From Candidatus Saccharimonadota bacterium (GTDB taxonomy: Bacteria > Patescibacteriota > Saccharimonadia > Saccharimonadales > Saccharimonadaceae), in assembly GCA_017421325.1 (NCBI GenBank), contig JAFOJO010000008.1:1-37839 (forward strand): a DNA stretch of 37,839 nucleotides. Direction: 5' to 3'. Shown in pieces: positions 2 to 27,260 of this stretch. Every line of letters begins with the position of its first letter. Position 1 is the stretch's first letter. The position numbers and the translations under genes were made by a program. Below the pieces are notes generated by a model that worked only from the letters and a program-made list of their open reading frames with translations, was not told the origin of the DNA and made no database searches.

Positions 2-649
2 ATTACGTCTAATTACTATATTTATGGCAATTCAGTTAAACCATCTGCTTGGCCAACCAATAACTACACCACGCCATACTCGGCCGAAGGCGGTGATACA
101 TATTACTACACATCTAATACCACCAGCAATGATACAAGATATAACTCTCTCCAAGCATGTAAGAACGCAAGTCATACAGAAGATGAATGTAAACGTTACT
201 TTGTTGGTAACTATTACAACTGGACTGCAGCTATAGCCTCCAATAACTCCACGAACACAGGTAGTACTGCTGGAGATATCGCTGCTAACTCTATTTGTCC
301 TAAAGGTTGGAGGCTGCCCAATGCCTCACAAACAGATAACGTATATAATGAGTTTGGCAGAATGCTATATCAAGCTGAAATAACCGCTAAGGTATCTGCC
401 GGTAACGATTCTGTAGGTTACGCAACAGGTGGTTTTAACAAATTACGCTCCAATCCTTACTACTTTGTGCGGTCTGGCAATATCTATGGCGGTACCCTGT
501 ACAATCCCGGCGCCAGCGGCTACTACTGGTCTAGTACGGTTAGCGGTAGTACCTTCGCTTACGTCCTGCGCTTTAATGGTACTGATATCTACCCAGCCCG
601 TAACCACGGCGGGGACAACGGGTGGTCTGTACGCTGTGTTGCTCGCTAA
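2..649 (+). CDS. FISUMP-domain surface protein, 3' end (partial)
   Basis: The gene enters from the left edge, so only its last 215 codons are visible. The frame is open throughout and ends in TAA. It contains the two halves of the Fibrobacter succinogenes major paralogous (FISUMP) fold: a NYYNWTAA stretch followed by ICPKGWRLP, and a closing YYWSS...GWSVRCVAR block. The residues are rich in Asn, Thr, Ser and Tyr, as in exported adhesin-like proteins. It resembles the C-terminus of the minus-strand protein at 25034-26965 (ICPAGWMLP, GFSVRCMRG), so the window holds two paralogous surface proteins. No sorting motif follows the domain. Signal peptide and promoter lie outside the window. Function beyond cell-surface exposure is unknown. 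Confidence 0.85.
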   Translation: MTSNYYIYGNSVKPSAWPTNNYTTPYSAEGGDTYYYTSNTTSNDTRYNSLQACKNASHTEDECKRYFVGNYYNWTAAIASNNSTNTGSTAGDIAANSICPKGWRLPNASQTDNVYNEFGRMLYQAEITAKVSAGNDSVGYATGGFNKLRSNPYYFVRSGNIYGGTLYNPGASGYYWSSTVSGSTFAYVLRFNGTDIYPARNHGGDNGWSVRCVAR

Positions 650-5851: not shown

Positions 5852-6898
5852 ATGAACTTATTGCATGGCGTGGGCGACTTTTTCTCCCTAGACATTGGGA
5901 CAAACTCGATGCGAATCGTGCAACTTTCTGGTAGTAGCCAGCACGGCTGGACTTTGCAAAAATACGCCTATGTCCCTATTACTCCGCAACTCACGCAAGA
6001 CGCTTCCGATCTTGGCAGAAAGCGTCTCGGCGAGGCTATTCTTGGTGCCGTCAATCAGGCCGGCATCAAAACCAAAAATATCGCCCTAGGCTTACCTGCT
6101 AGTAAAACCTTTACCTCCATAGTCGAAACCGAAACTTTACCCGAAAAAGAGCTCCAAAAATCTTTCAAATACGAAATCGACAAATATGTCCCTATGGCCA
6201 TGAGCGATGCCAAGGCTGACTATGTTATATTAGGCCCTAGCCCTAACGACCCAGCCAAAACCGAAGTCCTAGTTAGCTCCGTTGCGAAAGATTACGCCGA
6301 ATCCACCATGGAAATGATCGAAAAAACCGGTCTTAACATTATAGCTATGGAGCCGGAGCCACTTGCACTGGCTCGCGCTCTCAATAATCCTGGCTCTATT
6401 GACGCTACTATGATTGTAGATCTCGGGGAAGAATCCACTGATATTGTCATCATGTATAAAGACCAGCCACGTTTGGTGCGCTCTATCCCTGGTGGTGTAG
6501 ATGTTTTGATTCGCGCTATTGCTAATGGCCTCAATGTCCGCCCTGATCAAGCCCGCCAATTCTTGCTCAAATTTGGCCTTGACGAAAATCAAGTCGAAGG
6601 TCAAGTGTTCAAAATTCTTAATACCCATCTCGATGGCTACGCAGCCGAACTCGCCAAATCCGTTCGCTTCTTTCAGACTAAATACATTAATGGTAAAGTT
6701 GGCGGCATTGTGCTTTCTAGCTATGCCAACGTTATCCCACTTCTTCCAGAGTACATCGAAGCCAAAACTGGTGTTTCCACCATGCGTGGTAATCCTTGGC
6801 AATTTGTTCGCACTACGGCCGCTCAACAACGCACTCTGGCTAGTGTCTCTAGCGAATTCGCCGTAGCAATTGGCTTGTCAGAAAGGAGTAATGACTAA
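5852..6898 (+). CDS. pilM: type IV pilus assembly protein PilM
   Basis: A 348-residue actin-like ATPase that sits on the cytoplasmic side of the pilus platform and binds the N-terminus of PilN. The phosphate-1 motif is FFSLDIGTNSMRIVQL near residue 14, the phosphate-2 motif is IVDLGEESTDIVIM near 190, and the adenosine motif is GGIVLSSYA near 290. All are in family order and at normal length. A consensus promoter 7 nt upstream fixes the ATG start. Its TAA stop overlaps the pilN ATG by one base (TAATG), so the two are translationally coupled. Confidence 0.92.
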   Translation: MNLLHGVGDFFSLDIGTNSMRIVQLSGSSQHGWTLQKYAYVPITPQLTQDASDLGRKRLGEAILGAVNQAGIKTKNIALGLPASKTFTSIVETETLPEKELQKSFKYEIDKYVPMAMSDAKADYVILGPSPNDPAKTEVLVSSVAKDYAESTMEMIEKTGLNIIAMEPEPLALARALNNPGSIDATMIVDLGEESTDIVIMYKDQPRLVRSIPGGVDVLIRAIANGLNVRPDQARQFLLKFGLDENQVEGQVFKILNTHLDGYAAELAKSVRFFQTKYINGKVGGIVLSSYANVIPLLPEYIEAKTGVSTMRGNPWQFVRTTAAQQRTLASVSSEFAVAIGLSERSND

Positions 6899-8058
6899 TG
6901 GCGCGCGAAATTAACCTTGTCCCTGATATCAAGGGCGAAATGATTAAAACTTTAAAGCTTCGCAATCTTATCTATTTTATTTGCATCGCGGTAGGTATTA
7001 CCAGTCTTAGTGTCGTAGCTATCTTCTGGCTTATTTCTGGTGGACAAAAACTCGCCCTAGACGGCAAAAAAACCACGCTCGAAACGCTTTCGAAAAAGCT
7101 TAACTCATACAGCGACCTCAACGAATTCCTTACTATCAAAGATCAGGTTGGTAATATTTCCACATTAACCAGCAATAAAAAGGTTCTATCGCGTACCTTT
7201 AACGTACTCTCTGCTTTAATTCCTACCGGTGCCGATACCATTACCGTATCAGAATTAAACGTCAATCTATCAAATAATCAACCTAAGCTCTCCTTCGATG
7301 CTCAGGCTAATGCAGGGAAAGAACCATACATTGATTACAATGTCCTAGACTCTTTCAAAAAGAGTATGCAATATATGCGCTACGACTATGGTAATTATGT
7401 CGATAAAAACGGTGCCAAGATCCCAGCTTATTGTATGATCGAATCCGGTGCTGACGGTGCTACTTTCTCTGATTCGTCTAGAGGCATCTACGCTTTTTGG
7501 ACTATAGATGCCGAAGGCTGTAATCCCTCCTCCGAAACGAAAACTAGCGACTATACTACCGAAGATTATAATGGCCAACAAGTGGTTCGTATTTGGCGCA
7601 CTCCACAATATAGTGACTGGTACAAGCAAACCAAAGTCGAAGGCCAACCTTACATGAGCTTAGATGGTCAAATTTCTGGCGTAGAGCACTTCAACAGTGC
7701 TTGCATCACTTATACTGGCAACGCCAGTCAAAACAGCTCTAATCCTAAGTGGATCGAATCTAATGAAAACTGCCTTCTTGTCCCTGGTGGCACCGAAGGT
7801 ATTAACGTGTCAGACTCTTCTAACGGTCGTGGCGCTGGTGATGAATTAGTGCTCAGGTTTTCCGCAGTAATCTCTATTGCCCCAGAAGTCTACAACTTTA
7901 CCAATTCCCACGTTCTAGCTATCGCGCCGTCTGGCCGCCGCAATGTAACTGATTCCTACGTCCAAATCCAATCTATGTTTGGCGAACGCGCCCGCGATTG
8001 TGCCGAAGACGACACTGCCTGCAGTGCTAACACTAATAATGTAAATGGAGAGAACTAA
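6898..8058 (+). CDS. pilN: PilN-like pilus platform protein, enlarged
   Basis: The first residues, MAREINLVPD, are the PilN signature that docks into PilM. One membrane helix follows at about residues 22-48, then a predicted coiled coil and a ferredoxin-like periplasmic domain. At 386 residues it is about twice the usual PilN length. The extra mass after about residue 150 is rich in Asp, Asn, Ser and Tyr, has several cysteines, and matches no family I recognise. The start overlaps pilM and the end overlaps the pilO ribosome site. The extension may be a lineage-specific extracytoplasmic domain; that is inference. Confidence 0.85.
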   Translation: MAREINLVPDIKGEMIKTLKLRNLIYFICIAVGITSLSVVAIFWLISGGQKLALDGKKTTLETLSKKLNSYSDLNEFLTIKDQVGNISTLTSNKKVLSRTFNVLSALIPTGADTITVSELNVNLSNNQPKLSFDAQANAGKEPYIDYNVLDSFKKSMQYMRYDYGNYVDKNGAKIPAYCMIESGADGATFSDSSRGIYAFWTIDAEGCNPSSETKTSDYTTEDYNGQQVVRIWRTPQYSDWYKQTKVEGQPYMSLDGQISGVEHFNSACITYTGNASQNSSNPKWIESNENCLLVPGGTEGINVSDSSNGRGAGDELVLRFSAVISIAPEVYNFTNSHVLAIAPSGRRNVTDSYVQIQSMFGERARDCAEDDTACSANTNNVNGEN

Positions 8059-8932: not shown

Positions 8933-9276
8933 AAACAGACTTAGCCACATCTGTCATTGCCGCAATAGCAGGCGTATTGATAGCTTACTTTGTCACTAAT
9001 ATGTTTATCGGTCCAATTGAAGATATTACTTACACTACTGTCGATTCTAAGGTTAATGCTAACCTGTCCGATCCAGATCCAGAAGTATTCAACTACCGCG
9101 CACTCAACCCTACCGTAGAAGTTTACGTTGGCGAATGCGATGAATATAACAAATACGGTGAGTGCATCGAGGTTGAAACACCTGTCCAAAACGTAGCAGA
9201 AGGAACCGAAGAGTCGTCCGAAGGTTCAGCAGGAGAGCCCGGATCCAACACCGAGCCCAGCCAGGAGACCAACTAA
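8929..9276 (+). CDS. small single-span protein of the pil operon (PilP position)
   Basis: Encodes 115 residues with an N-terminal membrane helix (about 6-28), a short domain with PTVEVYVGECDEYNKYGEC and an acidic Ser/Glu/Gly/Pro-rich tail. It holds the place of PilP between pilO and pilB, but I see no lipobox and no clear homology to PilP. It overlaps pilO by 4 nt and its stop shares one base with the pilB ATG, so it must be co-translated. It is probably an accessory subunit of the platform. Confidence 0.75.
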   Translation: MKTDLATSVIAAIAGVLIAYFVTNMFIGPIEDITYTTVDSKVNANLSDPDPEVFNYRALNPTVEVYVGECDEYNKYGECIEVETPVQNVAEGTEESSEGSAGEPGSNTEPSQETN

Positions 9277-11039
9277 TGGCCCTCCTAACTAGGGAAGCAG
9301 AAGAGAAGATTATCAATCTTCTACTAGGCGAGGGGTTGGCCGACGCCAATCTTGTGCAGGCTGTCAAAGAAGAGGCCGAAAGAGAAAATAAACCGGTCTT
9401 AGCAGAGTTGGTCAACCGCAAGCTTATCAGTGATGACATGGTGGCCCATGCTACTGCCTTAATTATTGGCGTGCCTTATGTCGAACTCAAAAATGTCGAT
9501 ATCGACCAAGACATTCTCTCTAGAATCCCCCAGGATGCCTCCACTCGTGTACTTGCCGTGCCGCTCGGCGAAAAAGACGGTATGCTAAATGTCGCTATGG
9601 TGGATGTTACTAATGTTCAAGCTACCGACTACCTTTCCAATCTCGTCAACCAACCCATCCGAGTGTGGATGTCGTCCGAACGTGGCATCCGTAGCATACT
9701 AGATCAGTACCATGGTGATTTCTCTGGCGTTAAAGAGGCCGTTAAGGCAACCGGCGAAGAAGCCGCTGCTAACGCCGGGTCCAATGTTAAAACCATCGTT
9801 CAAGACTCGCCTATCTCTAAAGCTCTTACTACTATCCTAAGTTACGCCGCTAAAACCAAAGCCTCTGATGTTCATATCGAACCGCTCGAGAATTCGCTTA
9901 TTATTCGTTGTCGCATCGACGGTGTTTTAAGAAAAATTATGGAACTTCCCAAAACAGTTGCTCCTGCACTGGTATCGCGCATCAAGATTCTTTCAAATCT
10001 TAAAATCGATGAGCACCGTATCCCTCAAGACGGCCAATTTACCGTTTTGGTAGACAATCAAGAAATCGATCTTCGCATTGCCATCTCCCCGGTCACCTGG
10101 GGCGAACAGGTAGTTATTCGTTTGCTCGACAAAAAAGGTGTTTCTATGGAAATCGAAAAAATGGGTATGAGCGGCCGCGCTCTACGTGATGTATTAGAGG
10201 GAATCAAGAAACCTAATGGCATGATCTTAACTTCTGGCCCTACCGGCTCTGGTAAATCTACTACTCTGTATGCCTTGATTCAGAAAATCAAATCTGAGGC
10301 TATCAACATCGTTACCTTGGAAGACCCAGTCGAGTACAAAATGGACGGCATCAACCAGATTCAGGTTAATGTGGATGCCGGCCTCACCTTTGCTAGTGGT
10401 CTTCGCAGCATCCTTCGTCAAGACCCCGATGTGGTAATGGTAGGTGAGATTCGCGATTCCGAAACTGCTTCGCTGGCCGTGCAAGCTGCCCTTACTGGCC
10501 ACCTTGTATTTTCCACCCTTCACACCAACTCTGCTGCTGGTATTTTGCCGCGTCTTCTAGATATGGGCATCGAACCATTCCTCTTGGCTTCTACTTTAAA
10601 CGTAGTGATTGGCCAGCGCTTAGTCCGCCGTGTTACCGAAAAACGCGAAATGTACAAATCTTCCGATATCGAAACCAAAAGCATTAACGATATTGTTGGC
10701 GATATCCTTCCCGCTACCAAAGAAGATGTTGCGGCGGTCAGCGAAGACCTAGGCTACCCAGGTTTACCAGTTAAAAACGACGAATTCTATATGCTAGCTA
10801 AAGGCATGGATACTAAGGAAACTCCCGGTGGATACTCTGGTCGTGCTGGTCTTTATGAAACTATCGTTGTGGATGAGGATATCCAAAAACTAATCATTTC
10901 CCATGCTACCGCCAACGAAATTATGCGGCTAGCAAAGTCAAAGGGAACCGTTACTATGCGTCAAGATGGTGTCTTAAAAGCACTGTCAGGTATCACAACT
11001 ATGGAGGAAGTCAACCGCGTTGCTAGTGATTTGTCGTAA
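9276..11039 (+). CDS. pilB: type IV pilus extension ATPase PilB
   Basis: A 587-residue hexameric motor for pilus extension. An MshEN/GspE N-terminal domain covers about residues 10-150. The ATPase core has Walker A GPTGSGKST (about 320-328), an Asp box around LEDPVEYKMDGINQ, Walker B DVVMVGEIRD, and the His box LTGHLVFSTLHTN. The tetracysteine zinc motif that most PilB/GspE proteins carry after the His box is missing; that stretch has no cysteine. A diverged loop (RLVRRVTEKREMYKSSD...) takes its place. The start shares one base with the previous stop. The pilT promoter lies directly after the stop. Confidence 0.93.
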   Translation: MALLTREAEEKIINLLLGEGLADANLVQAVKEEAERENKPVLAELVNRKLISDDMVAHATALIIGVPYVELKNVDIDQDILSRIPQDASTRVLAVPLGEKDGMLNVAMVDVTNVQATDYLSNLVNQPIRVWMSSERGIRSILDQYHGDFSGVKEAVKATGEEAAANAGSNVKTIVQDSPISKALTTILSYAAKTKASDVHIEPLENSLIIRCRIDGVLRKIMELPKTVAPALVSRIKILSNLKIDEHRIPQDGQFTVLVDNQEIDLRIAISPVTWGEQVVIRLLDKKGVSMEIEKMGMSGRALRDVLEGIKKPNGMILTSGPTGSGKSTTLYALIQKIKSEAINIVTLEDPVEYKMDGINQIQVNVDAGLTFASGLRSILRQDPDVVMVGEIRDSETASLAVQAALTGHLVFSTLHTNSAAGILPRLLDMGIEPFLLASTLNVVIGQRLVRRVTEKREMYKSSDIETKSINDIVGDILPATKEDVAAVSEDLGYPGLPVKNDEFYMLAKGMDTKETPGGYSGRAGLYETIVVDEDIQKLIISHATANEIMRLAKSKGTVTMRQDGVLKALSGITTMEEVNRVASDLS

Positions 11040-11045
11040 CGCTTG

Positions 11046-11054
11046 TGCTATAAT
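11046..11054 (+). promoter_or_regulatory. internal promoter for pilT, leaderless
   Basis: TGC-TATAAT (TATAAT 11049-11054) sits in the 21-nt gap between pilB and pilT, 6 nt before the pilT ATG. No strong -35 is visible; the extended -10 may suffice. pilT-pilC could therefore be expressed independently of pilM-pilB. Confidence 0.7.
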
Positions 11055-11060
11055 AATACT

Positions 11061-12143
11061 ATGGAAAACAGTGGGCAATCAAATACGTTAAGAATAGAAA
11101 ATCTACTCGAAGAATGTGTACGTCGTAATGCTTCAGATCTTCATCTCCAATACGGCTTGCCGCCAATTTTGCGCGTAGACGGTGTTTTGGCGCCCGTTGC
11201 TGGCACTACCGCCATGAACGAAGACATTGTACGCAATCTAATTTTTGCCACCCTCGACGAAGATCAACAAAAAATCCTCTTGAAAGATAAGGAGTTCGAC
11301 TATTCCTTCGCCTTCGGCGATATCGCCCGCTTTCGTGTAAACGCTTTTCATGAACGTGGCAAGTTGGCTGCCGCCTTCCGCCTCATCCCTAATAAAATCA
11401 AGGGCATCAACGAGCTTGGCATGCCCGCCATCGTTGAAACTTTTGCTGATTTTCCACGTGGCTTGGTGTTAGTTACCGGCCCTACTGGCTCTGGTAAATC
11501 TACTACTCTCGCCGCCTTGGTAGACAAAATCAATCGTGAGAAATCTACTCATATTATTACTATCGAAGATCCAATCGAATTTACACACAAATCTATTCGT
11601 TCCGTCATTGCCCAGCGCGAAGTCCATTACGATACCTTTAGTTTTGCTGCGGCTCTGAGGTCTGTTCTTCGTGAAGATCCGGATGTAGTATTAATTGGTG
11701 AGATGCGCGACCTCGAAACCATCCAGGCTGCCATTACTATTGCCGAAACTGGTCACTTAGTCTTTGCAACGCTACACACCAACTCTGCCGCTCAGTCTAT
11801 CGACCGTATGATTGACGTCTTCCCGGCTCATCAGCAGCCTCAGGTACGTTCGCAGCTCTCTAATATGCTGATGGCTATTTGCGCTCAGCGCCTAGTGCCA
11901 GCTATTGGTGGTGGTCGTGTCGTAGCTGCCGAGATTATGGTGGCTAATTCCGCCATCCGTACTCTTATCCGCGATGGCAAAACCCATCAAATCGACACCG
12001 CCATCCAAACCGGTGCCGACCAAGGCATGCAGACTATGGATCGTACTTTAGCTAAGCTCATTCAAACCGGCGTAATTTCTTACGATTCCGCCCGCGAATA
12101 CGCCGTAGATATCAACGAATTGAACCGGCTAGTAAAAGGTTAA
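11061..12143 (+). CDS. pilT: type IV pilus retraction ATPase PilT
   Basis: A 360-residue hexameric ATPase that powers pilus retraction, and thus twitching and DNA uptake. The start ENLLEECVRRNASDLHLQYGLPP is a typical PilT N-terminus. Walker A GPTGSGKST is at about residues 140-148, followed by IEDPIEF, VLIGEMRDLET (Walker B) and the His box ETGHLVFATLHTNSA. Near the C-terminus AIRTLIRDGKTHQI is a variant of the AIRNLIRE signature needed for retraction. The upstream TTG frame is rejected because the -10 box lies inside it. Confidence 0.95.
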   Translation: MENSGQSNTLRIENLLEECVRRNASDLHLQYGLPPILRVDGVLAPVAGTTAMNEDIVRNLIFATLDEDQQKILLKDKEFDYSFAFGDIARFRVNAFHERGKLAAAFRLIPNKIKGINELGMPAIVETFADFPRGLVLVTGPTGSGKSTTLAALVDKINREKSTHIITIEDPIEFTHKSIRSVIAQREVHYDTFSFAAALRSVLREDPDVVLIGEMRDLETIQAAITIAETGHLVFATLHTNSAAQSIDRMIDVFPAHQQPQVRSQLSNMLMAICAQRLVPAIGGGRVVAAEIMVANSAIRTLIRDGKTHQIDTAIQTGADQGMQTMDRTLAKLIQTGVISYDSAREYAVDINELNRLVKG

Positions 12144-21089: not shown

Positions 21090-21957
21090 TGGTTAATCCC
21101 ATATATTTTAATATTAATTTATCAATTTCGCTTTTGCCATCCTCACCCGGCTCTAGCATCTCGGCCAGCACTTCATTAAAGGCATTGAGAAGCTCTGCCC
21201 GCTGTTTATTTACCGCTATAGCATAAGATTCTTCCACCGGATAATCTTCTTCTGTCGTTTCTCCCTGATAATACAGCGGCAACGCTGCTAGATTTGGATT
21301 TTTCTCCACGATAAACTGCGCCGCTAGTTCGTCTGCCACTGTATAATCTATAATATGTGCTCCTATTGCATCTGCCGCCAGCTGATGCGAATCAAATCCT
21401 TTTACCACTGTACCCGTATCTTTTAATACTCCCTCGTCTATCTCGTCAGACATAAAAAGGTACCCGGTGCTCCCCATTTGTGTGCCCAAAGTTTTGCCGG
21501 CCAGCGCCCCCCACACTACATGTTCATCACGCATTTCGGGCGCACTATCTTTGTTGAAGATCACATACTGTACCGAGGTGTAATAGGGGATTGTGAAATT
21601 TACCTTCTCCGCCCGTGCCGGCGTAATAGTCAGCCCCGCTGCCCCTGCATCGGCCAGTATTCCATTTTCTACGTTATCTATAATTAAATCGAATTCTACA
21701 TTTTTTATGTCTATTTTTGCATTTAATTTTTCCGCTACGCGATTAATTATCTCTATATCTACCCCTACAATCTTGCGATTATCATAATATTCAAACGGCG
21801 CAAAAAACGCATTAGTCTCCACGATATAATCATAGGTTTCTATACTTTGCACAAATAGATAAGTCATTAGGCCTATTACCGCCACCGCCAGCACGGCTAA
21901 CATTTTCGGCCAAGAAAACACTTTCCGCCATTTACTGTTTTTAGACCTCCGTGTCAT
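21082..21957 (-). CDS. amino-acid ABC transporter substrate-binding protein
   Basis: A 291-residue family 3 solute-binding protein. It has a basic start, one membrane helix (about 18-37) and no lipobox cysteine, so it is probably tethered by the helix rather than lipidated. The binding fold shows FAPFEYYDNRKIVGVDIEIINRVAEKL, GLTITPARAEKVNFTIPYY and a VKGFDSHQLAADAIGAH hinge region. ATG 21957 is chosen because TATAAT stands 6 nt upstream. A second promoter and a structured RNA (22049-22200) lie further upstream. The ligand cannot be read from the sequence. Confidence 0.92.
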   Translation of the reverse strand: MTRRSKNSKWRKVFSWPKMLAVLAVAVIGLMTYLFVQSIETYDYIVETNAFFAPFEYYDNRKIVGVDIEIINRVAEKLNAKIDIKNVEFDLIIDNVENGILADAGAAGLTITPARAEKVNFTIPYYTSVQYVIFNKDSAPEMRDEHVVWGALAGKTLGTQMGSTGYLFMSDEIDEGVLKDTGTVVKGFDSHQLAADAIGAHIIDYTVADELAAQFIVEKNPNLAALPLYYQGETTEEDYPVEESYAIAVNKQRAELLNAFNEVLAEMLEPGEDGKSEIDKLILKYMGLTNG

Positions 21958-21969: not shown

Positions 21970-22048
21970 CCGCAAAATTCTTAAGGTTTAATGAATTATG
22001 CAAAAGTACATTTCTACTTGTGGTGCCACTTGTAAACGGGGTATATTA

Positions 22049-22200
22049 CAAAAATGGCACCGCAAGGGGTGCAATAAACCGAAGACTTGTATCAACCAAA
22101 GGCTAATATAGACGTCAGGTTGCCTCGCGGTACCATTTCCACGTCTAAAAAGCCCCTGGTTATAAAAATTGTTGATACTCTTGCATCTTCGATTTATTGC
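22049..22200 (-). ncRNA. structured RNA / leader copy 1 with terminator switch
   Basis: Read on the minus strand, a promoter (TTGACT at 22232-22237, TATAAT at 22207-22212) starts RNA at about 22200, exactly at a 15-bp closing stem (22186-22200 with 22071-22085). Further helices are AACCAGGGGCT/AGCCTTTGGTT and TAGACGT/ACGTCTA, with an apical CC-GCGA-GG GNRA loop. The core ATGGTACCGCGAGG (22123-22136) can instead pair over all 14 positions with CCTTGCGGTGCCAT (22054-22067), which is followed by five T. The same design recurs at 27009-27158. TGGTACCGCG equals a T-box core, but no Stem I is seen. It may control the amino-acid transporter downstream or be a free small RNA. Confidence 0.7.
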
Positions 22201-22206
22201 ATTTTA

Positions 22207-22237
22207 ATTATACTGCAATCATCTCCCCCCAAGTCAA
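22207..22237 (-). promoter_or_regulatory. promoter of structured RNA copy 1
   Basis: TTGACT (22232-22237), 19-bp spacer, TATAAT (22207-22212) on the minus strand. The predicted start falls at the base of the closing stem. Confidence 0.65.
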
Positions 22238-22260
22238 CAAAAACGCAAAAACAAAAATGT

Positions 22261-22367
22261 AATTTGAGAATAAAAGCCACCAGAACGGTATTTTCTCTTG
22301 CCGAAGTGCGGTTATCCACCGAGCGAGGCAAGAAAAATGCCGTTATTGGCGGCTTTTAACTCAAATT
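22261..22367. repeat. long palindromic element H6 abutting tRNA-Arg
   Basis: A 107-nt rod: AATTTGAG/CTCAAATT, TAAAAGCC/GGCTTTTA, AACGG/CCGTT and a CTTGCC/GGCAAG stem with A/T-rich flanks. It begins at the base after the tRNA CCA end. T runs follow it on the minus strand, so it may also terminate the tRNA transcript. Confidence 0.75.
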
Positions 22368-22443
22368 TGGTGACTTCGGTGCGACTTGAACGCACAACCT
22401 TCTCCTTAGGACGGAGCCGCTCTATCCATTGAGCTACGAAGCC
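22368..22443 (-). tRNA. tRNA-Arg (anticodon CCT)
   Basis: A complete cloverleaf on the minus strand: acceptor GGCTTCG/CGAAGTC, D arm GCTC/GAGC, anticodon loop GTCCTAA giving CCU (reads AGG), and T arm GTGCG-TTCAAGT-CGCAC. The discriminator is A and CCA is encoded (22368-22370). The anticodon stem has one outer G-A mismatch and loop position 32 is G, both slightly unusual. Confidence 0.93.
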
Positions 22444-25033: not shown

Positions 25034-26965
25034 TTATTGGCTGCCACGCATACACCGCACAGAGAACCCCGTATTCTTATCGCCGCCGCCACGATTGGCG
25101 CCAGCACCATTGGAGGCCAGATAGTATGCAAAGCTATTACTGTATTGAGTACCAGACCACCAGCATCCGAGATCGCCAACATAGTGCTGGGAACCGGAGA
25201 GGAAGAGGCCTGTAGTAGCCAACATTCCAGGATTCGCCCCATTATTCCACAATGTTGCCGCTGTTATGTCAGAAGTATAGGTAGGCAACATCCACCCTGC
25301 CGGGCATATATCTCCTACCGAGTTATCTGTATCATTACTGCAAGAAGAAGTTCCAACCGTATTATTAGTTCTAGCCGTAGCTGCTGGCCAGTTATAATAG
25401 TATTCATTATTCTTTGAGGCCATATATGGCTGACAATAATCATTTTTCCAACCACTATTGCCAGTATCTGCTGGTAGTGTATATTCTGCTGTTACGTTAG
25501 AAGTACTAGTACTTAATACGGTGCTACCAGCCAATCTTAGATTACTCAACATATAACAATAATTACCAAACTTAGCTACTGTATAGGATTTCTTGTCTCT
25601 TTCATCTGTCACATTAGCACCAGTAGTAGGGCAGTATTTACTTTCATTGTTTGGGTTGTTTGGTATGGTAGTGTCTAGGTCTAAGTCTTGCATAGCAGTA
25701 TAGCTTCCAAGTATGCCTTTAGCGGTAAATGTCTCGCCTACATTGCCAGCTGTGTAAGTGGTAGTAAGTAATGTAGAGCTTCCTAGTGTACCGGCATAGG
25801 ATAATCTCTCCCAACTATCTAGTTTATAATGCGCAGCTGGTACCACGGTAATGTTGTATTTAGCACCTTCAGCTGGAGCAGGTATTACTACATCACTAGT
25901 AGAAGTAGCATAGAGTGGTACGAATTTATCAGTCGTATTGGCTTTTACTACAATAATGGTTTCTATACCGTCTCCTACTTTGAAGGTTAAGTCTGTAGGT
26001 GGATCTCCCCACATAGCATATAGCTCTAGGCTGTTAGTGGCTGCAGTTTGGTCTAAAGTATATGCTCCTCCAGCTGAGTATTTAGTATTTGGGCTTTCAC
26101 ATTGAGTATTGTCTGCTATTGCTACTGTACACCAACCAGTGAATATATAGCCACTACGTGTAGGGATATTATCACTAATAGTAGCTATTTCACCATATAC
26201 ATCACTAGCTACATTAGCTGGCATGTTCTCTACGGTATCTAATGTGTTCTTATTATATGTAATGCTATATGGTGTATTATTAGCTACCATTTGTATCACA
26301 AAGGTACCTTCATATGTGCTAGCTTTAGTACTAGTAGTAGCTCTAGCTCCTATAGCTACCGTATATGTTTCATCTTCTGTGTTAGCGTTACCAGTGATGT
26401 CTAATACATCTCCTGTAGTACTAGGTGCTGGGTAGTAGTTTACTGTATTATTAGTGCAAGTAGTAGCATCTTCTCCGTCTGTACAATATCTACTGGGTAG
26501 ATAGCCCCATTGGTTATTATAAGTAGTACTATCTTCTCCAGAAAAGGTAGCTAGGTTAATAGCTGTACTAATAGGCGCTATACTATTACCATTTGTGTCA
26601 CTTAGTGTTCTATCTTCTACTGTTTCTGCAGCAATCTTTAATGTATATCCTGTGTAATTATTGGTCCTAGCACCAATACTTAGATTGCTGGAGCTAGCAA
26701 AGGTACCATTAGGAGATACTGGCTTTAAGTTTAGAGACAGTGTATTAGAGCCTACTGTGAGAGAAAGGGTGCTAGTGGTGGCGGAAACCACTCCACTAAA
26801 TGACACTGAAATAATTGCAGTCATGACTAGCATTAACAATACCATAGAGCAAAATAAGCGAGGTCGTAGTGCCAACGGAAGAAGTGAAAAGCCGTTGGCA
26901 CTAAAACACCGCTTATTATTACTTTTACCCGCACCTTCTATATTATTTATTTGTGATAACCTCAC
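25034..26965 (-). CDS. secreted FISUMP/InlB-repeat surface protein
   Basis: A 643-residue exported protein. A long basic N-terminus and hydrophobic stretch (about 38-60) end in VVSA, a likely signal peptidase site. An Ser/Thr-rich beta domain follows. An InlB B-repeat/Flg_new module (YSITYNKNTLDTVENMPANV ... GYIFTGWC ... LELYAMWG) lies near residues 230-320. A FISUMP domain with RDKKSYTVAKFGNYCYMLSNLRL, ICPAGWMLP and GFSVRCMRG forms the C-terminus. The start is GTG, set by AAGGTGG 6 nt upstream. No cell-wall anchor is seen. Structured RNA copy 2 sits just upstream and may control it. An adhesin role is inference. Confidence 0.85.
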   Translation of the reverse strand: MRLSQINNIEGAGKSNNKRCFSANGFSLLPLALRPRLFCSMVLLMLVMTAIISVSFSGVVSATTSTLSLTVGSNTLSLNLKPVSPNGTFASSSNLSIGARTNNYTGYTLKIAAETVEDRTLSDTNGNSIAPISTAINLATFSGEDSTTYNNQWGYLPSRYCTDGEDATTCTNNTVNYYPAPSTTGDVLDITGNANTEDETYTVAIGARATTSTKASTYEGTFVIQMVANNTPYSITYNKNTLDTVENMPANVASDVYGEIATISDNIPTRSGYIFTGWCTVAIADNTQCESPNTKYSAGGAYTLDQTAATNSLELYAMWGDPPTDLTFKVGDGIETIIVVKANTTDKFVPLYATSTSDVVIPAPAEGAKYNITVVPAAHYKLDSWERLSYAGTLGSSTLLTTTYTAGNVGETFTAKGILGSYTAMQDLDLDTTIPNNPNNESKYCPTTGANVTDERDKKSYTVAKFGNYCYMLSNLRLAGSTVLSTSTSNVTAEYTLPADTGNSGWKNDYCQPYMASKNNEYYYNWPAATARTNNTVGTSSCSNDTDNSVGDICPAGWMLPTYTSDITAATLWNNGANPGMLATTGLFLSGSQHYVGDLGCWWSGTQYSNSFAYYLASNGAGANRGGGDKNTGFSVRCMRGSQ

Positions 26966-27008
26966 TTCTATCCACCTTTCTGTTTTATCGTGCAGTACCT
27001 ATCCATTA

Positions 27009-27158
27009 CAAAAATGGCACCGCAAGGGTGGAACAACTTACTACCCAACCAGCATGGAACCGTTTAGATAGATAGCAACCTTACGGCGCCATCTCAAATC
27101 TAAACGATCCTATCCAAAAATAAAAACGTGCTGGCAATTAAATAGTAAGTTGTTCCAC
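27009..27158 (-). ncRNA. structured RNA / leader copy 2 with terminator switch
   Basis: The minus-strand promoter TACAAT (27163-27168) starts RNA at about 27157, at a 16-bp perfect closing stem (27143-27158 with 27028-27043). Inner stems are CCAGCA/TGCTGG, CGTTTAGAT/ATCTAAACG and AGATGGC/GCTATCT with an apical CC-GUAA-GG GNRA loop. The core ATGGCGCCGTAAGG (27079-27092) can pair over all 14 positions with CCTTGCGGTGCCAT (27014-27027), followed by five T. Stem sequences differ from copy 1 while pairing is kept, and the 3' block of about 25 nt is nearly identical. The surface protein GTG lies 44 nt beyond. Confidence 0.7.
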
Positions 27159-27260
27159 TCTCATTGTATCGTGCTTTCAAAATATCCGCAAGTGCAATGT
27201 AGGAATATCTCTCGATGATACCAAAGCCGGCGCTTTAACTGTCGGCTTTCCCTTTTATTG

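Follow-up and report, generated by a model that had tools for sequence, protein, structure and literature searches.

A putative family of cis-acting 5'-leader transcription attenuators in Saccharibacteria, associated with surface-protein genes

Introduction

Two stretches of about 150 nucleotides in the genome of a Candidatus Saccharimonadota bacterium, a very small and host-dependent organism, raise the question of what RNA they encode and what that RNA would do for the gene downstream. Both lie on the minus strand of the window, the whole 37,839-nucleotide stretch of DNA analysed here (contig JAFOJO010000008.1), with copy 1 at 22049-22200 and copy 2 at 27009-27158. An earlier note, made from the sequence alone, had described them as two copies of a selected RNA that matched no family known to its author and can take two exclusive folds, and had suggested a riboswitch, an attenuator or a protein-controlled leader. 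We present a computational analysis by which they probably represent a new family of cis-acting 5'-leader transcription attenuators.

Results

Copies 1 and 2 are members of the same structured RNA family. They were found on the strand and at the positions that had been given for them, and they fold far better than dinucleotide shuffles, with copy 1 reaching -55.9 kcal/mol (z -5.8) and copy 2 reaching -67.1 kcal/mol (z -8.3). Their parts are as follows.

22207-22212, minus strand: copy 1 -10 hexamer, TATAAT, 6 nt before the base of stem P1
22187-22200, minus strand: copy 1 P1 5' strand (fold and alignment)
22161-22170, minus strand: copy 1 U-rich asymmetric internal loop
22123-22136, minus strand: copy 1 strand A, ATGGTACCGCGAGG, with the apical CC-GCGA-GG of hairpin H1; complementary to strand B
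22071-22085, minus strand: copy 1 P1 3' strand (fold and alignment)
22054-22067, minus strand: copy 1 strand B, CCTTGCGGTGCCAT, invariant in 43 copies
22050-22054, minus strand: copy 1 T5 tract, the predicted terminator end
22017-22029, minus strand: copy 1 strand C, GTGGCACCACAAG, A-like, which can pair with B in a read-through RNA
27163-27168, minus strand: copy 2 -10 hexamer, TACAAT, 6 nt before the base of P1
27143-27156, minus strand: copy 2 P1 5' strand (fold and alignment)
27111-27130, minus strand: copy 2 U-rich internal loop
27079-27092, minus strand: copy 2 strand A, ATGGCGCCGTAAGG
27030-27043, minus strand: copy 2 P1 3' strand (fold and alignment)
27014-27027, minus strand: copy 2 strand B
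27010-27014, minus strand: copy 2 T5 tract
26991-26999, minus strand: copy 2 weak C-like strand, GGTACTGCA, with G-U pairing to B
25034-26965, minus strand: gene behind copy 2, a 643-aa exported protein with a FISUMP domain (TIGR02145, 42.2 bits, above the cut-off)

The elements that had drawn attention to the two loci are present in both: closing stems that differ in sequence and nevertheless pair, an apical CC-GNRA-GG (GCGA in copy 1, GTAA in copy 2), and a 14-nt core, strand A, complementary to an identical 3' strand B followed by T5. The 18-mer CCTTGCGGTGCCATTTTT of this 3' strand gave 43 exact matches in the 861-kb focal genome (40 contigs) against none for a reversed control pattern, which excludes chance, and covariance model R1 recovered 43 full copies and one partial copy of the leader RNA. 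All 43 share one layout, consisting of a -10 hexamer, a long hairpin of variable sequence, the apical strand A, and then B with T5. Two of the leaders, L015 and L026, are identical on different contigs and are probably a single locus assembled twice; statistics on stems, spacing and T tracts were taken over 41 distinct aligned focal copies.

The closing stem P1 has 14 bp, with 98.9% of cells paired over the 41 copies, and its 5' strand has 41 different sequences among them. Both-sided changes occur at 13 pairs, the covariation score is 0.858 versus 0.240 in partner shuffles, and pairing drops to 27-48% with slid partners. The claim of a selected RNA is thereby upheld, while the count of two copies is not. 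The same data bear on the idea of a DNA-level element, either a transposon end or a recombination or gene-conversion site in which hairpins are incidental. The dispersal of many copies that share one and the same 3' core would suit such an element, as would the many copies that adjoin contig ends in the manner of repeats. However, the stem sequences all differ and still pair, G-U pairs are kept, which is relevant to RNA and not to DNA, and every copy has a promoter at fixed spacing and is oriented toward a gene. Shared termini or target duplications were not seen in the alignments inspected, and the closing-stem strands, where a transposon end would have shared terminal sequences, differ in every copy. 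We consider a DNA-level element very improbable.

A -10 box had been proposed to place the RNA 5' end at the stem base, and the survey bears this out: the distance from the end of the hexamer to the base of P1 is exactly 6 nt in 41 of 41 copies, with an extended -10 (TG) in 35 of the 41. From this fixed spacing, the predicted 5' end of the leader RNA is the first base of P1, which in copy 1 is position 22200. Between P1 and strand A, all 41 focal copies have a loop with at least four U. The GNRA loop at the tip of H1 is exposed (probability unpaired 0.99-1.0), and the GG, CC and GG of strand A are mostly paired within H1 in the focal copies. A long imperfect inverted repeat (window 22258-22368, minus strand) lies between a tRNA-Arg gene and copy 1.

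Further homologues with covariation, which the earlier note had expected from a covariance-model search, occur in several Saccharibacteria genera. Model R1, run on 151 genomes of the family, had matches in 17, which represent 12 of the 61 genera. These relatives keep one design in other letters, for example a P1 of GTCTTAA../..TTAAGAC with ACGGCACCGCATAAG as strand A and a strand B inside GACACC-TTGC-GGTGTC-GTTTTT. With model R2, six other species of the genus each had about 11-17 copies and others had few or none; two more families of the order had a single copy each. Outside the order the model found none among 287 genomes from the phylum, under strict filters by which weak matches can be lost. 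In a pattern scan, several relatives among the matches listed were Saccharibacteria of sheep, goat and cattle gut, and the non-Saccharibacteria matches among those listed were taken as chance. Viral contigs gave 10 exact matches to this loose pattern, a number similar to that expected by chance. Two loci, L289 (G153) and L067 (G116), look like leader remnants that have B and C together with a much shortened hairpin and no normal A.

Strand A has the general form ATGGYRYCGYRAGG in focal copies, its first two positions being less constant, and could pair with B over 11-14 bp. The T tract that follows has five residues in 40 copies and six in one (n=41). At A positions 5, 6, 7, 10, 11 and 12 only C to T or A to G changes occur in focal copies, giving G-U pairs with the invariant B; the search expression had fixed the R/Y classes, yet every copy matched it. 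Exceptions to these G-U-preserving changes are found at position 2, with a few at position 1, and at position 10 a G-U pair is preferred. Across genera, in a set of 30 sequences drawn from the focal genome and its relatives, 8 of the 14 A:B pairs are changed on both sides, with 24 such cells versus 6.6 in shuffles. Where relatives have several copies, cis A:B pairing exceeds trans pairing in all five genomes compared, by most in G157 (12.3 versus 8.4 of 13) and by smaller margins in G172, G162, G164 and G159. Each A best fits its own B in relatives whose B differs, indicating that A:B pairing takes place in cis. RNAalifold on whole alignments recovered A:B as the sole helix, since a nested structure cannot hold both P1 and A:B and the central part of H1 cannot be aligned. 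Strand A often reads ATG-GCA-CCG-TAA or ATG-GCA-TCG-TAA/TGA (Met-Ala-Pro/Ser-stop) with no ribosome-binding site; ATG-GCA-CCG-TAA was rejected as a mini-ORF on that ground and because start or stop is gone in many copies.

H1 and A:B had been put forward as two exclusive folds. Equilibrium probabilities are 0.96 for P1 and 0.03 for A:B, and folding with a nested A:B costs 9.4 kcal/mol on average, so that H1 is dominant at equilibrium and A:B needs kinetics or a factor. Moreover, P1 should close before B emerges, and A:B would therefore depend on a factor or on H1 closing slowly, unless it forms as a pseudoknot. Strand B also has a local alternative, a 5-bp hairpin GCACC/GGTGC before T5, predicted at more than 0.5 in 24 of 41 copies, which in these models is a candidate for a competing terminator.

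A different reading is that H1 and A:B coexist in a single pseudoknotted RNA, in which the tip of H1 kisses B in a stable structure that is not a switch and that serves as 5'-end protection, a protein platform or a constitutive pseudoknotted terminator. Such an arrangement would account for the position of A at the H1 tip in every copy at a constant distance of about 65 nt, for the exposed GNRA loop, for an RNA 5' end within a stem, and for the long one-sided U-rich loop of all 41 focal copies, which could serve as a hinge. By contrast, GG, CC and GG of A are mostly paired within H1 in focal copies, and in 12 of 13 copies from other genera A pairs with an upstream strand D, similarly placed within the hairpin (mean helix score 6.3 versus 4.4 for shuffled upstream sequence); both point to exclusive folds. 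Furthermore, P1 itself has an alternative partner in G164, where in 6 of 7 copies the copy-specific P1 3' strand together with ACCC pairs over 9-15 bp with segment E, a short way upstream of the ribosome-binding site, in cis (10.2) more than in trans (7.2). In these G164 loci (L161-L167) this segment is a repeat of the 5' end of the leader in the same copy (GGGTGTT...), and can thus pair with that copy's P1 3' strand. The pseudoknotted RNA is a minority reading that we judge unlikely. Three lines drawn from sequence comparison, namely the cis fit of A to B, D:A pairing, and the downstream competitors C and E, favour exclusive folds, and the proposal of two such folds stands with covariation in both P1 and A:B and with competing partners for A and P1 in relatives.

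Strand C scores 8.1 with B in the focal genome versus 4.5 for shuffled sequence, and in G159 B:C pairing extends over 14 bp in 11 of 12 copies. B:C pairing shows no cis preference, and so does not decide on trans action. The latter would make the leader a free small RNA of about 150 nt, ended at T5, that acts on other members of the family, for instance through B on the C of read-through mRNAs. Each copy does have its own promoter and terminator-like end, and B, which does not vary among focal copies, is complementary to the C of many mRNAs. However, the copies are co-directional with an ORF and typically lie 20-240 nt upstream of its start, and where B varies within the genome of a relative, A follows its own B (cis over trans). 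We regard a trans-acting small RNA as quite improbable, somewhat more so than the pseudoknot.

The focal downstream ORFs encode one family of proteins, which are exported and have a hydrophobic segment at the N terminus. A FISUMP gene lies behind 33 of the 44 focal leaders, within 2.3 kb on the same strand, and TIGR02145 matches 49 places in the focal genome (pieces merged), 33 of them behind a leader; most exceptions among both leaders and FISUMP genes are at contig ends. The end of a FISUMP-domain gene at the contig start (window 167-643, plus strand) is probably a further family member cut by the contig end. Leader genes are mostly FISUMP-type surface proteins in the six relatives in the genus, and vary in other genera (T4SS-pilin-like, OmpA-like, DUF4352 and others). 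In some 5' UTRs of the family, two other structured inserts of about 150-170 nt, conserved between copies, are seen between strand C and the ribosome-binding site, one type in L003, L011, L020 and L030 and the other in L014, L025 and L039.

The ABC-transporter gene (SBP_bac_3) that follows copy 1 carries a TATAAT of its own at 21969-21964, close ahead of a likely ATG at 21957, and copy 1 was therefore rejected as its leader. The 3' flank of copy 1 is like the 5' UTR of other family members until the match stops, and copy 1 is an orphan leader; it retains the beginning of the first insert type. An association with transport or surface genes had been anticipated, and the surface half is borne out (33 of 44 before FISUMP), whereas the transport half falls away with an orphan copy and an independently promoted transporter.

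Sister species with 30-54 FISUMP matches, including G153 and G168, gave no leader matches. The FISUMP genes inspected in these two genomes mostly have a short or absent 5' leader, with the -10 box almost at the start codon, which indicates that the family can be expressed without the leader. A diversity-generating retroelement at L171 (G000:C40) comprises a template repeat, a reverse transcriptase and a 785-aa FISUMP-type variable protein (6338-6637, plus strand; 6646-7791, minus strand; 9010-11389, minus strand), and 25 of 27 mismatches in the variable-protein gene are at template adenines. Leader genes as DNA-level targets of this retroelement were rejected, as a whole-genome template-repeat search gave the variable-protein gene as the single target.

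Discussion

The helices, their covariation, the promoter spacing, the T tract and the association with genes are computational observations, and among a riboswitch, an attenuator and a protein-controlled leader it is attenuation that fits them best. The leader is promoter-proximal and co-directional with its gene. It has a terminator-like helix with a U tract (A:B covariation, T5 or T6 in 41 of 41 copies) and a conserved helix that excludes it (P1 covariation, D:A, and E with the P1 3' strand in G164).

In the attenuation model that we prefer, transcription would start at the first base of P1, and the nascent RNA would fold into H1, a long hairpin (P1-P2-P3) that has strand A at its tip. Just after the P1 3' strand, strand B would be made, followed by U5, and the alternative A:B helix would then act as an intrinsic terminator. 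H1 and A:B share A and cannot coexist as nested helices, which leaves RNA polymerase a choice between stopping at about +150 and reading through into the gene. We infer that A:B with U5 stops transcription, that H1 permits read-through, and that the choice between them is regulated. After read-through, downstream C (with B) or, in one species, E (with the P1 3' strand) could capture the 3' strands. In the focal genome the leader would in this way govern the FISUMP surface-protein family.

Since a single leader type stands at more than 40 loci, a shared factor, or a shared low probability of read-through, would set the expression of the whole surface repertoire. A bolder extension, which we offer as speculation and think unlikely to hold, is a shared but individually barcoded RNA switch over more than 40 surface proteins whose members are turned on singly or stochastically, that is, surface-protein choice by a new class of sensing RNA in Saccharibacteria. 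The leader would be an RNA family specific to this lineage, present at dozens of loci of a minimal genome and linked to the surface proteins by which the cells likely meet their hosts. It offers a testable handle on the control of a large surface repertoire, through RNA 3' ends at the T5 tract and through A and B mutants, and it contributes an RNA family whose two competing helices are both visible by covariation.

In comparison with catalogued RNAs, the view that the RNA belongs to no known family agrees with Rfam 15, whose sole match in the window was a tRNA gene, with no credible match over either copy at E up to 10 and none over leader copies in 20 related or focal loci. No regulatory RNA described in Saccharibacteria, this leader included, was found in the open-licence papers searched. 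The core UGGNACCG resembles, as we take it and as a lead only, the T-box sequence, and T-box RNAs are likewise about 150 nt long with a terminator competing with another fold. However, C stands at the first T-box position in 12 of 42 focal copies, and neither aminoacyl-tRNA synthetase genes nor amino-acid genes lie downstream. T-box RF00230 gave no Rfam match at E up to 10 in the window copies, nor any in the 20 loci, and T-box membership was rejected on the missing match and the wrong genes.

The leader shares with attenuation riboswitches and leaders a promoter-proximal position, a shared strand that is alternatively paired, a terminator-like hairpin with a U tract, and a gene directly downstream. 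It differs from them in having no recognised conserved ligand pocket: the conserved bases are confined to A, B and the U-rich loop, no ligand, protein or unpaired pocket was recognised, and nearly all of the conservation falls on A and B, two strands that pair with one another. It differs also in that the sequence of the antiterminator-like hairpin varies freely and in that up to 44 copies occur in one 0.86-Mb genome. With trp-type attenuators that use leader peptides, it presumably has in common a chain of exclusive strand-sharing helices (the P1 3' strand with the P1 5' strand or E; B with A or C). By contrast with these, it has no conserved leader ORF or regulatory codons, and the occasional ATG-GCA-CCG-TAA in A is unconserved and lacks a ribosome-binding site. 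The leader is not a member of any catalogued family that was tested, and it would work in the manner of an attenuator.
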